A program made the translations under genes and the position numbers. Source: Terfezia claveryi (lineage: Eukaryota > Ascomycota > Pezizomycetes > Pezizales > Pezizaceae). Taken from it: a DNA stretch of 64,000 nucleotides. The notes under the pieces are model-generated. The model saw only the letters and a program-made list of their open reading frames with translations, was not told the origin of the DNA and ran no database searches. The stretch lies in contig WHUX01000059.1 in NCBI GenBank assembly GCA_015179025.1, positions 124,001-188,000 on the forward strand. The letters run 5' to 3'. This document shows positions 27,362 through 34,431 of this stretch, piece by piece (the first letter of the stretch is position 1; each line of letters starts with the position of its first letter).

Positions 27362-27538
27362 TAATACCCATGCGCACCGTGCTCATAACCTGTTGGAGGG
27401 TGTAACCGCTAGGACAAAACGTGATCACTGGGTGCTAACAAACACCGATAGTTATATTGTACGCTCACAGACATAAATAATGCACGAACCCTGTATGTGG
27501 CGAGATTTAGTAGTTACCAGGTAATTGACAGGGCGGTA

Positions 27539-28092
27539 CGGAGGCTCACACCAAAAGTCTTTTCCCCTTTCCTTTTTGGGAATCTTGCATATGCAAGACT
27601 ATGCACGGCATGCAACTTAGCATTATTCAGCTCTAAAACGGGTGGTAATGGCAATTAGTGATGAGTTTTACCTTTAATATTGCCTTAATATGCTGTTGCC
27701 TGTGCCCTGCCCTGAATATAGCCAGAATATACAGTACCTAAATGGCTTATGACGTCCATAATGCGGCTGGCGGAGTGTACCAAGGCTGCTGCATTGGTGA
27801 TGCATACGCCAAGCACATCCGCTCAGGCTTGGCATCAATGAAGCAGCCTTGGCATACGCTGCATACGGCAATATAGGACAATTAAGACGTTCTGCACCCA
27901 AAGAAGCTACTGGGTAGGAGGCGAGCCTAGAGGCGAGGAACAAGTAAAGGTAAAATGAATCGTTACATGGCTGGTATATGATGCATTGTCATTAGAACCC
28001 AATTTAATGCCAAGTTGCATACAGTGCATAGGCTTGCATATGCAAGATTCCCAAAAAGGAAAGGGGAAAAGACTTTTGGTGTGAGCTTCCGA
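27539..28092. mobile_element. Hairpin element with about 80-bp inverted ends
   Basis: The left end (27541 onward: gctcacaccaaaagtctttt, cttgcatatgcaag, tgcaactta) is repeated inverted at about 28010-28092 with few mismatches. A second, inner inverted repeat (accaaggctgctgcat ... atgaagcagccttggcat) lies near 27775-27870. A minus-strand frame (27963-28385) overlaps the right arm and encodes an acidic segment of unknown nature. A decayed single arm also occurs at 20893-20970. Confidence 0.7.
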
Positions 28093-29067: not shown

Positions 29068-29906
29068 ATGAAATTCTATCTAGGGACCACCCTGATCTTT
29101 AATACAGTTTTCTTCATCCATCTGGCCAATGCGAAAGTATGTAACGACAGTTGTGCCGCTTGCTGGAAAATCGGCGAACCTGGGGTAGATACCAAGTGGG
29201 AATGCCATGTTACTGGTGAATGTGGTAATTCCTGTCCACCAGGTTACTATGACTTACACTGCGCAAAATGGCAACGTTGCGTGTAAGTTTGGATTTTTTA
29301 TTCTTCCAATTGTCCTATGTTTCTGCGGGGATATATGAATACATACAACCTTCATTGTGTGGTCGAAGACAACCGTCTCCCCTTTGCCTTTCTGAGAGTC
29401 GGGTCGAAGGTTCCCTATCTCGGGAAGCTTATCCCATTATCAGTAATATACCTCCTCGTTCTCGCACTCTCGTTGGATCCCCATCCAACGTCTTGTATAT
29501 CAAATACAGGCCTTCCTTCCTATCACGTCGGTGCACCTCCCTTGTGCACCCCCTTGTCTCGTCTTGTCTCCGCGGCCTTGCTGCCCCATCTCGCGAAACA
29601 CCCATCACATGCGGAAGTCCTGCCGCGTGTGTCAAGCCTGCCCGTCTGCTCCTGCCCCTGCTCTCGTTCCCTCCGATCACACACGTAGTACCTCCTACGT
29701 GTGCGATACCCCCTTGCCCCTCTTACCCCTTGGTCGCCACATCCCTCGTGCCGTCGTTACACGTTTGTTCTGTTGATATGTCGCTAACGAGGAAGCAATT
29801 TAATAGCTGTCGCAACGGTCCGCCTTGTCCCGAGTTCGGCCCGTGCTACTACGGGATCGCCAAGGGTGCTAGTGGCCGTGATTCTTGCCGAGAGAGACCT
29901 CAATAA
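29068..29906 (+). CDS. Small secreted cysteine-rich protein (effector-like)
   Basis: Unrecognised family. ATG at 29068 opens a clear signal peptide (MKFYLGTTLIFNTVFFIHLANA, cleavage expected after Ala22). Exon 1 alone would end at a TAA at 29284-29286, giving 72 residues with eight Cys. But that TAA lies inside a perfect GTAAGT donor (29283). A CTAAC branch site near 29783 and a TAG acceptor at 29804-29806 define an intron of 524 nt, and the phase (2) matches. Exon 2 (29807-29906) adds CRNGPPCPEFGPCYYGIA and a tail DSCRERPQ with four more Cys. The spliced product is 104 residues with 12 Cys in about 82 mature residues. Exon 2 is thus supported by phase, branch site and cysteine content. The intron is very long for this genome and carries a C/T-rich stretch (about 29,380-29,760), possibly an insertion. 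Function unknown; position in a transposon-rich island resembles fungal effector genes. Confidence 0.65.
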
Positions 29907-32159: not shown

Positions 32160-34431
32160 CTAAACTAGGCTCTCCCAGTGAAAGGAAAGCTCATCTTCGA
32201 AGGAAAGCTTATCTTCTCCATCGTCAGAACCAGAAAGTCTACGATCGATTGCAAACACTTCCAAGTCACTCAATAGCCTCCACACCAATTTTTTCAAGTC
32301 ACTTAAGACGTATTCCACCACCACTTTGTCCACCTCTAATTCGGGGAGAGACCACGGGAAAATCTTTCCTGTAGTCCCTCGCACCTTCAGATCCGGCTGA
32401 ATATGCCCGATATACCTTTCACACATCAAACAACACGCTTTTGAAACCCCTATCATATTCTTGGTGCCCTATACCTAATCAATATATGTTTATTCCCAAA
32501 GTCTTGAGATAAGTATGTACGTACTCGCAATTCCGCCAACAATTTCTTAAAGTCTGCCTTGTAGACAGGCTCTATTAGTGCATCTACTTTGTCGTATTCC
32601 AAAGCCTTTAGAAATGCCAATGATGTTTCGCAATGCACTTTTCCTGTGAACTGGTCTTCCCACTTCTCCCAATTCTCTACCGTCAATGCTAGCCAAGCCT
32701 CGTCTTCTTCAACCTTTTGCGCCGCCTTGGCTTGTATGGCTTTTTTAACTCGTTCGAAATTATCACTATCATCCAATACCCAATGCAACAAATCGTCCAA
32801 ACACGCTTGCCTCTTCCTGTCACTATTGGCTGGGTTGTCCACAAATATAATAGAAACTTTTTGCTTCAATGACTTGGCCAGGGTGAATGTGGCTTCAGTC
32901 CACTGGACAACAAGACCTAACCACTTCAAAAAGCAACGAGCCGGATCATCGTACACAGCCTCACGGCTAAACAGAACTCCCTCGTCTTCCAGATTATCCC
33001 TAATACCGCATCCACTGGCGAACAACGATCCTTGTCAGTTTAAAGATAATACACCTGACAGGACCATTATACCTCAGTGAGCTTGTTACCATCCACCTAT
33101 TTTATCACCTTTACTGCATAAGCTCGACCTATGTCTTTAAACTGACAAGGATCGTTATACACCAGTGGATGCGGTATCCTATACTCAGATTAGAAATGGA
33201 GAATCTCAATTGTCCTTGAGGACATTACTTACCTGGGGCATTAAGGAGGAGAACAAATCGCAACTTGCTTGCTTTAGAAAGCTGGCAATAGATGGTTGGT
33301 GTATGTATATATAAAAACTCTCACTTCGGTGTACAAGATCTCCCAACACACCCATCACCTGGTTGATCTTTTTAAAGAATATCTTTCGCACCCTTTTCGG
33401 CCTCTACAAAACCTACTTTCTTATTTTTCATTGTGTCCCTATAGTTGGCAAGCATTGACAGTTGATCATCGAGCCTGTTCATGAAGAAAGACACAAATTC
33501 GTGATAGTGGAATATGGACATCTTATCCAAGACGACTCGGCCAAAGCTATCGAGGTTAAATGTATACCCGGTTACCTCCTTCATGAGCGGGAGGTGTCTA
33601 TCATTTCCCTTTGCCTTTCTGACCTTTTTGAAAAATGGGTTTGGGAGAAAATTCTTGCTCAGCTCAGCGCGAGTAATAGCGCCATCACGGAAAAGTCCAA
33701 GAAATTTCTCTCTACACCTTGGATGCAGAGAGATTGTGAGTCGTTGTTGGATCTTCGGTTGGCATTACAGAAGAGAGAAATGCCGGAGCTCTGTAAGTAC
33801 GGCCCTTTTTTCGTCCACTGTATTTGCGTCCACGTATATGTTACACAGTGTTTGCAGTTGATGGGCGTGGTTGGCTGGCGTCAATGGTCCTCTTAAGTAT
33901 ATAGATCAATTAGTTGGGCACGCACTTTTCGATATCGGTGACGGGTGTTCATTTACGCTTTCAAGAAAGCCTTCAGCCAATCAAGCCCAAAACAGTTGTG
34001 TGAAGATGGAGGGGAAATCATAGGAGGGAGGAGTTTCTGGCCTTTTGCTGTCGAATTCTTTGTTGCAAGAATTTGATCAATCTCCGCCACAGTGCCGACT
34101 GCCTGTACCCCACTACCACCTTTGTGGGAAATAACGATGGCAGCAACATCCGCCTTCGCTTTAGTAACAAACAGTGTGGCTATGCGGTTGAGTCGGTAAG
34201 GGCATCATGAGCGGGATCGCTGGTAGGTAGGCAGGATGGTTGCCCAGGGCGGGGGTTAGTAATGCTCAGAAATGTCGTGGCTGCACGAATCAGCCTCTTT
34301 GATTCTGTCAAACTGAGCTGCACCTGTTCCTCTAGTGTGTCATCAATAGCATTCTCATCATCTACATTCATATTGGATGAGATGCAGATGCCGGGGGGTT
34401 GAGGGAGGTGTTGTGACGGCGGGTATAGCAT
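32160..34431 (-). CDS. OTT_1508-like deaminase family protein
   Basis: Member of a fungal family with a predicted cytidine-deaminase-like zinc fold; substrate unknown. Exons on the minus strand that join in phase: (34431-?), 34179-33957, 33891-33769, 33717-33417, 33367-33325, 33271-33233, 33030-32525, 32459-32160. Introns are 49-65 nt except one of 202 nt. The zinc-site motifs are GKVHCETSLAFL (His-x-Glu) and, across the last intron, IGVSKACCLMCERYI (Cys-x2-Cys). Other recognisable parts are RFVLLLNAPG, LFASGCGIRDNLEDEGVLFS and KIFPWSLPEL. A TAA at 33765-33767 seems to break the frame but falls inside a phase-consistent 51-nt intron. The join of the first exon (ATG 34431) is unresolved, so the N-terminus is tentative. 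The gene looks intact despite lying among transposons. Confidence 0.72.
33004..33178. repeat. Inverted duplication of an intron-exon boundary
   Basis: The stretch 33004-33050 (ccgcatccactgg ... gatccttgtcagtttaaag) recurs as its reverse complement at 33137-33178 with a few differences. The first copy spans the 3' splice site and first codons of an exon of the deaminase gene; the second lies within the preceding intron, about 90 nt away. Confidence 0.85.

Follow-up and report, generated by a model that had tools for sequence, protein, structure and literature searches.

In the genome of Terfezia claveryi, a mycorrhizal desert truffle (PMC12000269), a small cysteine-rich reading frame ends at a stop codon that lies within a splice donor, raising the question of whether the locus encodes one protein or two. 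The frame sits in a 64,000-nucleotide stretch of that genome, which is referred to as a whole as the window. A first-pass annotation of the window took the stop as the sign of two deliberate isoforms, both secreted and both made from the same gene. Combining a search of the T. claveryi assembly (72.56 Mb, 794 contigs) with homologues from elsewhere, we arrive at a different reading, and a strongly favoured one, i.e. that this is an ordinary two-exon gene within a multicopy family of secreted-looking, cysteine-rich proteins, whose intended product is the spliced protein of 104 residues and 12 cysteines.

All parts of the gene lie on the forward strand. Exon 1 (29068..29282; 215 nt) starts with the ATG at 29068, encodes a signal-peptide-like N-terminus and a module of eight cysteines (residues 25, 29, 32, 46, 52, 56, 65 and 71), and breaks off two bases into a codon, so that the intron is in phase 2. 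The N-terminus is hydrophobic, with a mean Kyte-Doolittle value of 1.6 over residues 5-20, and the residues ANA precede KVC. The intron (29283..29806) spans 524 nt, compared with 126 nt at the same site in the paralogue C668, and runs from GTAAGT (29283-29288) through a branch-site-like CTAAC (29784..29788), a motif that also stands near the acceptor in the copies C668, C734 and C257, to its terminal TAG (29804..29806). Exon 2 (29807..29906) supplies the junction base, 32 residues with four cysteines (C-x5-C-P-x-F-G-P-C) and a TAA stop at 29904-29906; the C..C..FGPC..C pattern of exon 2 is thus present in the window copy. Read without splicing, the frame is closed by TGC GTG TAA at 29286, its in-frame TAA (29284..29286) being formed by the phase-2 donor, and the product is 72 residues with 8 cysteines, whereas splicing yields 104 residues (72 + 32) with 12 cysteines (8 + 4). 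The cysteines, the signal-peptide-like N-terminus, the stop, the splice signals and the two alternative products had all been described in the first-pass annotation, and each was reproduced here from the sequence. The claim of a real two-exon, secreted-looking, cysteine-rich gene is likewise backed by copies within the genome and by homologues outside it, and the locus is a real gene with a real intron. Cysteine content by itself is not rare, since among 60 simulated windows with the first-order base statistics of the real one, nine held an open reading frame of 60-90 aa with at least eight cysteines; a frame of that kind with a hydrophobic N-terminus as well appeared once across all 60. The relatives are stronger evidence for a real gene than is the rarity of such frames in simulated windows, with exon order and intron phase repeated in the seven other intact copies of the genome.

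When exon 1 was searched against the genome, eight further matches were obtained (best E value 3.0e-25), comprising seven intact copies and one remnant, and the window gene itself displays the exon-1 cysteine pattern and the CAACW...HCA....RC core of this cysteine-rich family. The eight intact copies, including that of the window, represent seven distinct sequences once the remnant (C434:210005) is left out; the copies C424 and C434a do not differ within the sequence read, and the pair may reflect a duplication in the assembly. In all eight, a phase-2 intron occurs in the same place, one codon past the last exon-1 cysteine, and its length is 115-248 nt in the other copies versus 524 nt, the longest of the eight, in the window. 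Seven of the eight carry an exon 2 with four to six cysteines, C434b being the exception. Exon 2 alone, searched against the whole genome, matched the window, the remnant and C734, and in a search of the fetched loci it matched C668 and C257 too, with weak hits on C39, C424 and C434a (E 0.06-0.23) and no match on the C434b locus. These exon-2 readings of the genome's own copies use acceptors picked by eye; they agree with the annotated proteins for C39, C257 and C734, while the annotation has one extra residue at the C434a junction and a C434b tail shortened by three residues, the difference expected of an acceptor located 9 nt downstream. The remnant (L020, C434:210005-210266) contains stops and seemingly lacks a portion of exon 1 as well as the beginning of the intron; its exon 2 is recognisable. 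A Pfam profile search gave no match for these family proteins, and an NCBIfam search of 10 proteins gave two matches only, both far below the cut-off (E 0.13 and 0.4). The gene, in which the first-pass annotation had recognised no family, belongs to a multicopy family with no Pfam or NCBIfam entry.

The family extends to other fungi, and 21 annotated homologues from Terfezia, Tirmania, Laccaria and Hebeloma genomes bear on the refuting condition set by the first-pass annotation, namely relatives that stop at the donor and have no exon-2 cysteines. Most of them contradict it, as an exon 2 with the GPC motif is found in 15 of the 21 and spans all four genera. The others count against the longer form: three (P0055, P0088 and P0103, all Laccaria amethystina models) stop at the donor, two (P0015 and P0017, i.e. 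T. claveryi C434b and its T. boudieri relative) finish with a short, cysteine-less tail, and one (P0011, from Tirmania) runs past the cysteine module without a GPC motif. The window and C668 copies group with the T. boudieri protein P0012 (99/83), whose exon-1 and exon-2 cysteines match their pattern; no annotated protein was returned in the homologue search for either of these two T. claveryi copies. Because the relatives carry exon 2, the 104-residue spliced form is favoured over a two-product switch. P0015 and P0017 also group together in the tree (100/99), and C434b (L019, C434:3267-3470) is common to two Terfezia species, its annotated form lacking exon-2 cysteines and being a natural 8-Cys protein; the 8-Cys form can thus exist as a separate gene. 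The named matches of the family are confined to Terfezia and Tirmania, among the Ascomycota, and to Laccaria amethystina and Hebeloma cylindrosporum, among the Basidiomycota. A single branch (94/89) separates the proteins P0058, P0064, P0076-P0078 and P0080 from those of Terfezia and Tirmania, so that descent and one transfer fit equally.

The hidden stop follows from the intron phase together with a consensus donor. In a phase-2 intron, two exon bases and the intron's G make an NNG codon and the next three bases are a stop, such that donors of GTAAG, GTGAG and GTAGG yield TAA, TGA and TAG, respectively. Because the donor supplies it, the type of stop varies among the copies, being TAA in three (window, C668 and C257), TGA in three (C39, C424 and C434a) and TAG in two (C734 and C434b). 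A further 100 homologues, mostly metagenomic, related to one another rather than independent, and with some ends that may be contig ends, extend this picture. After the last exon-1 cysteine, 53 of them end one residue on and 11 end at the cysteine itself, while 13 continue with one residue (x) and then Tyr, nine with x and Trp, five with some other tail and two with an exon-2-like continuation; seven lack the motif. Judging from these ends, most appear to read exon 1 straight into the intron. In the classifiable set of 75 (53 + 13 + 9), from which the other 25 are left out, x is of a kind that NNG can encode in every case, compared with 32 % of residues in these proteins that are of non-NNG kinds, and the position and phase of the intron hence look to be family-wide. 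The stop itself is not kept family-wide, because Tyr or Trp replaces it in 22 of the 75. One protein among those left out, P0085, has at x a Tyr that NNG cannot encode and continues into an exon-2-like stretch, and looks to be spliced or intronless. Conservation of a truncating stop beyond what the donor demands was not found, the type of stop tracking the donor; the donor stop is a routine by-product and no device.

Features of the protein are in keeping with a full-length, spliced product. The cysteines at residues 46 and 52 are lost together in C39, in C424 and in P0023, and an extra pair in exon 2 (the cysteine of GPCxC and a C-terminal one), scored by eye, is present in both members in 14 of 17 aligned proteins and absent in both from the other three. 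This pairwise gain and loss, which is expected of disulfides in the full-length protein, suggests disulfides within the module of each exon. The AlphaFold model of P0012, the spliced homologue (17 sequences), is of fairly high confidence, at a mean pLDDT of 81.8, with values of about 90 over the exon-2 part, and that of the window's exon 1 alone (7 sequences) has a mean of 67.5, the inputs being too unequal for a clean comparison. The P0012 model had no match among solved folds.

According to the preferred explanation, the spliced protein would consist of a secretion signal, the 8-Cys module of exon 1 and the 4-Cys module of exon 2. The intron cuts a codon after its second base, and G|TAA, G|TGA or G|TAG is then read as NNG plus a stop. 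An unspliced message on ribosomes would end at the donor stop, as Yarrowia transcripts with retained phase-2 introns do; most probably it would be a substrate for decay or a by-product, the spliced messenger being the one presumably made. A simple rule applies, namely that a GTAAG, GTGAG or GTAGG donor in phase 2 always shows a stop. This reading also corrects a tempting but mistaken inference, in which a stop in a donor is taken as evidence of regulated isoforms.

A transposon-rich setting had been proposed, and repeats are indeed found on both sides of the gene, the 5-kb flanks each being rich in genome repeats (123 and 109 among the matches listed, self-matches included, drawn from 40 scored candidates per side). 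A 173-nt block at window 33004-33176 has the look of a small inverted-repeat element: it shows 90-100 % identity to many places, and its ends are inverted over about 44 nt. A repeat of about 555 nt at 27537-28091 has inverted ends of about 87 nt and 84-96 % identity to sequences on several other contigs. For the window, 36 open reading frames of at least 120 aa were listed; 10 larger ones were included in a Pfam scan, and five of these passed the threshold of a family (F-box, CoA transferase, CSN8/PSMD8/eIF3K, eIF2A and C2H2 zinc finger). Within the intron, bases 302-694 of the query locus (29369..29761, forward strand) recur at many places in the genome; the locus has at least 46 genome matches, of which one is itself, two are the C668 paralogue and 43, at 72-91 % identity, fall within this block. 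C668 and the remnant are both without the block, although their introns are similar at the ends to that of the window copy. The block resembles the long terminal repeat (LTR) of a family that includes a roughly 6.1-kb element at C118 with LTRs that are 97 % alike. One internal frame of that element carries, in sequence, reverse transcriptase, RNase H and integrase, which is the arrangement of Ty3 elements, and the strand of this frame places the insert in the sense of the gene. No target-site duplication and no canonical TG start were seen when the ends of the insert were inspected. This diverged, Ty3-type, LTR-like insert makes up about 393 nt of the 524-nt intron.

The insert underlies the alternative that survives best, which concerns this copy only and is compatible with the family explanation. 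It holds that the insert, by lengthening the intron, impairs splicing or transcription and leaves the locus with a low output of functional protein, the window copy thus being in decay; we regard it as doubtful, albeit worth serious consideration. It draws on the absence of the insert from the closest copy, C668, on the unusual length of the intron, on a terminal branch of 1.02 for the window copy versus 0.11 for C668, and on dN/dS values near 1 for that pair (0.85 in exon 1 and 1.23 in exon 2), which point to weak constraint on the two; across the computable pairs, exon-2 dN/dS ranges from 0.39 to 1.24. The want of an annotated protein for the window copy also speaks for decay, but C668, which has no insert, is likewise without one. 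Moreover, both frames, all 12 cysteines, the donor, the branch-like motif and the acceptor are intact in the window copy, and the insert is itself so diverged that the frame may have outlasted the insertion for a long time.

A further proposal, and an improbable one, is that the insert hinders splicing or ends transcripts early by its own polyadenylation signal, with the result that a stable, secreted 8-Cys protein is the main product here and the longer form that of its paralogues. If true, the stop would have gone from by-product to the end of a functional short isoform through the action of a transposon, akin to the Terfezia copy whose exon 2 is without cysteines, and the locus would be a clear case of a protein isoform brought about by a transposon.

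The original proposal, in which regulated intron retention gives two functional secreted isoforms, one with 8 and one with 12 cysteines, from a single gene, we now consider quite improbable. The unspliced frame does end cleanly behind a complete 8-Cys module, the number of exon-1 cysteines is even (eight or six) in all eight intact copies, P0015 and P0017 (cysteines counted by eye) represent an 8-Cys gene without exon-2 cysteines in two Terfezia species, and three Laccaria gene models are short. However, the stop follows mechanically from phase 2, as it does in each of the eight copies, and the homologues with Tyr or Trp in its place would gain intron-coded tails upon retention, while the 15 annotated homologues with a GPC-bearing exon 2 favour the longer protein. 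The stop therefore loses its value as a sign of two deliberate products; two working isoforms are possible, with scant evidence for them beyond the frame itself. That there is no gene, just a chance cysteine-rich frame, is next to impossible, for although simulated windows sometimes hold such a frame and the homologue search gave no annotated protein for this copy, the eight further exon-1 matches in the genome, the matches of exon 2 alone to two of the same loci and the homologues in other genera rule it out.

The spliced gene is best compared, first, with the hypothetical proteins of Terfezia, Tirmania, Laccaria amethystina and Hebeloma cylindrosporum, with which it shares the exon-1 cysteine pattern, the CAACW core, the HCA....RC ending and, as in most of them, the GPC motif. 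The window copy differs in having the LTR-like insert in its intron and in lacking the extra pair of exon-2 cysteines that most of the aligned proteins have. The five species with family matches are all mycorrhizal, and a family that is unassigned in Pfam and NCBIfam and occurs in desert truffles and two Agaricales is consequently a fair candidate for symbiosis work, with a role at the plant root being conceivable. A second comparison is with the mycorrhiza-induced small secreted proteins (MiSSPs), small proteins with a signal peptide whose size limit is set by one account at <300 residues (PMC7105643). The spliced product has 104 residues and an N-terminus that is hydrophobic by its Kyte-Doolittle mean, a measure distinct from a signal-peptide prediction. 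It resembles TcSSP1, a MiSSP described from the same species, in being small, secreted-looking, an orphan and the product of a mycorrhizal fungus, but TcSSP1 is listed under a separate gene ID, 1140457 (PMC12000269). The closest parallel for the donor stop comes from Yarrowia lipolytica, in which the donor motif itself also makes the in-frame stop: a phase-2 intron whose donor is GTGAGT or GTAAGT is reported always to bring one in when retained, with 209 of 1,083 introns doing so via a phase-2 GTGAGT and 11 more via GTAAGT, about one in five overall (PMC2911113). The retained forms are discussed there as targets of nonsense-mediated decay, and Terfezia is of another lineage, the rate given being that of Yarrowia.
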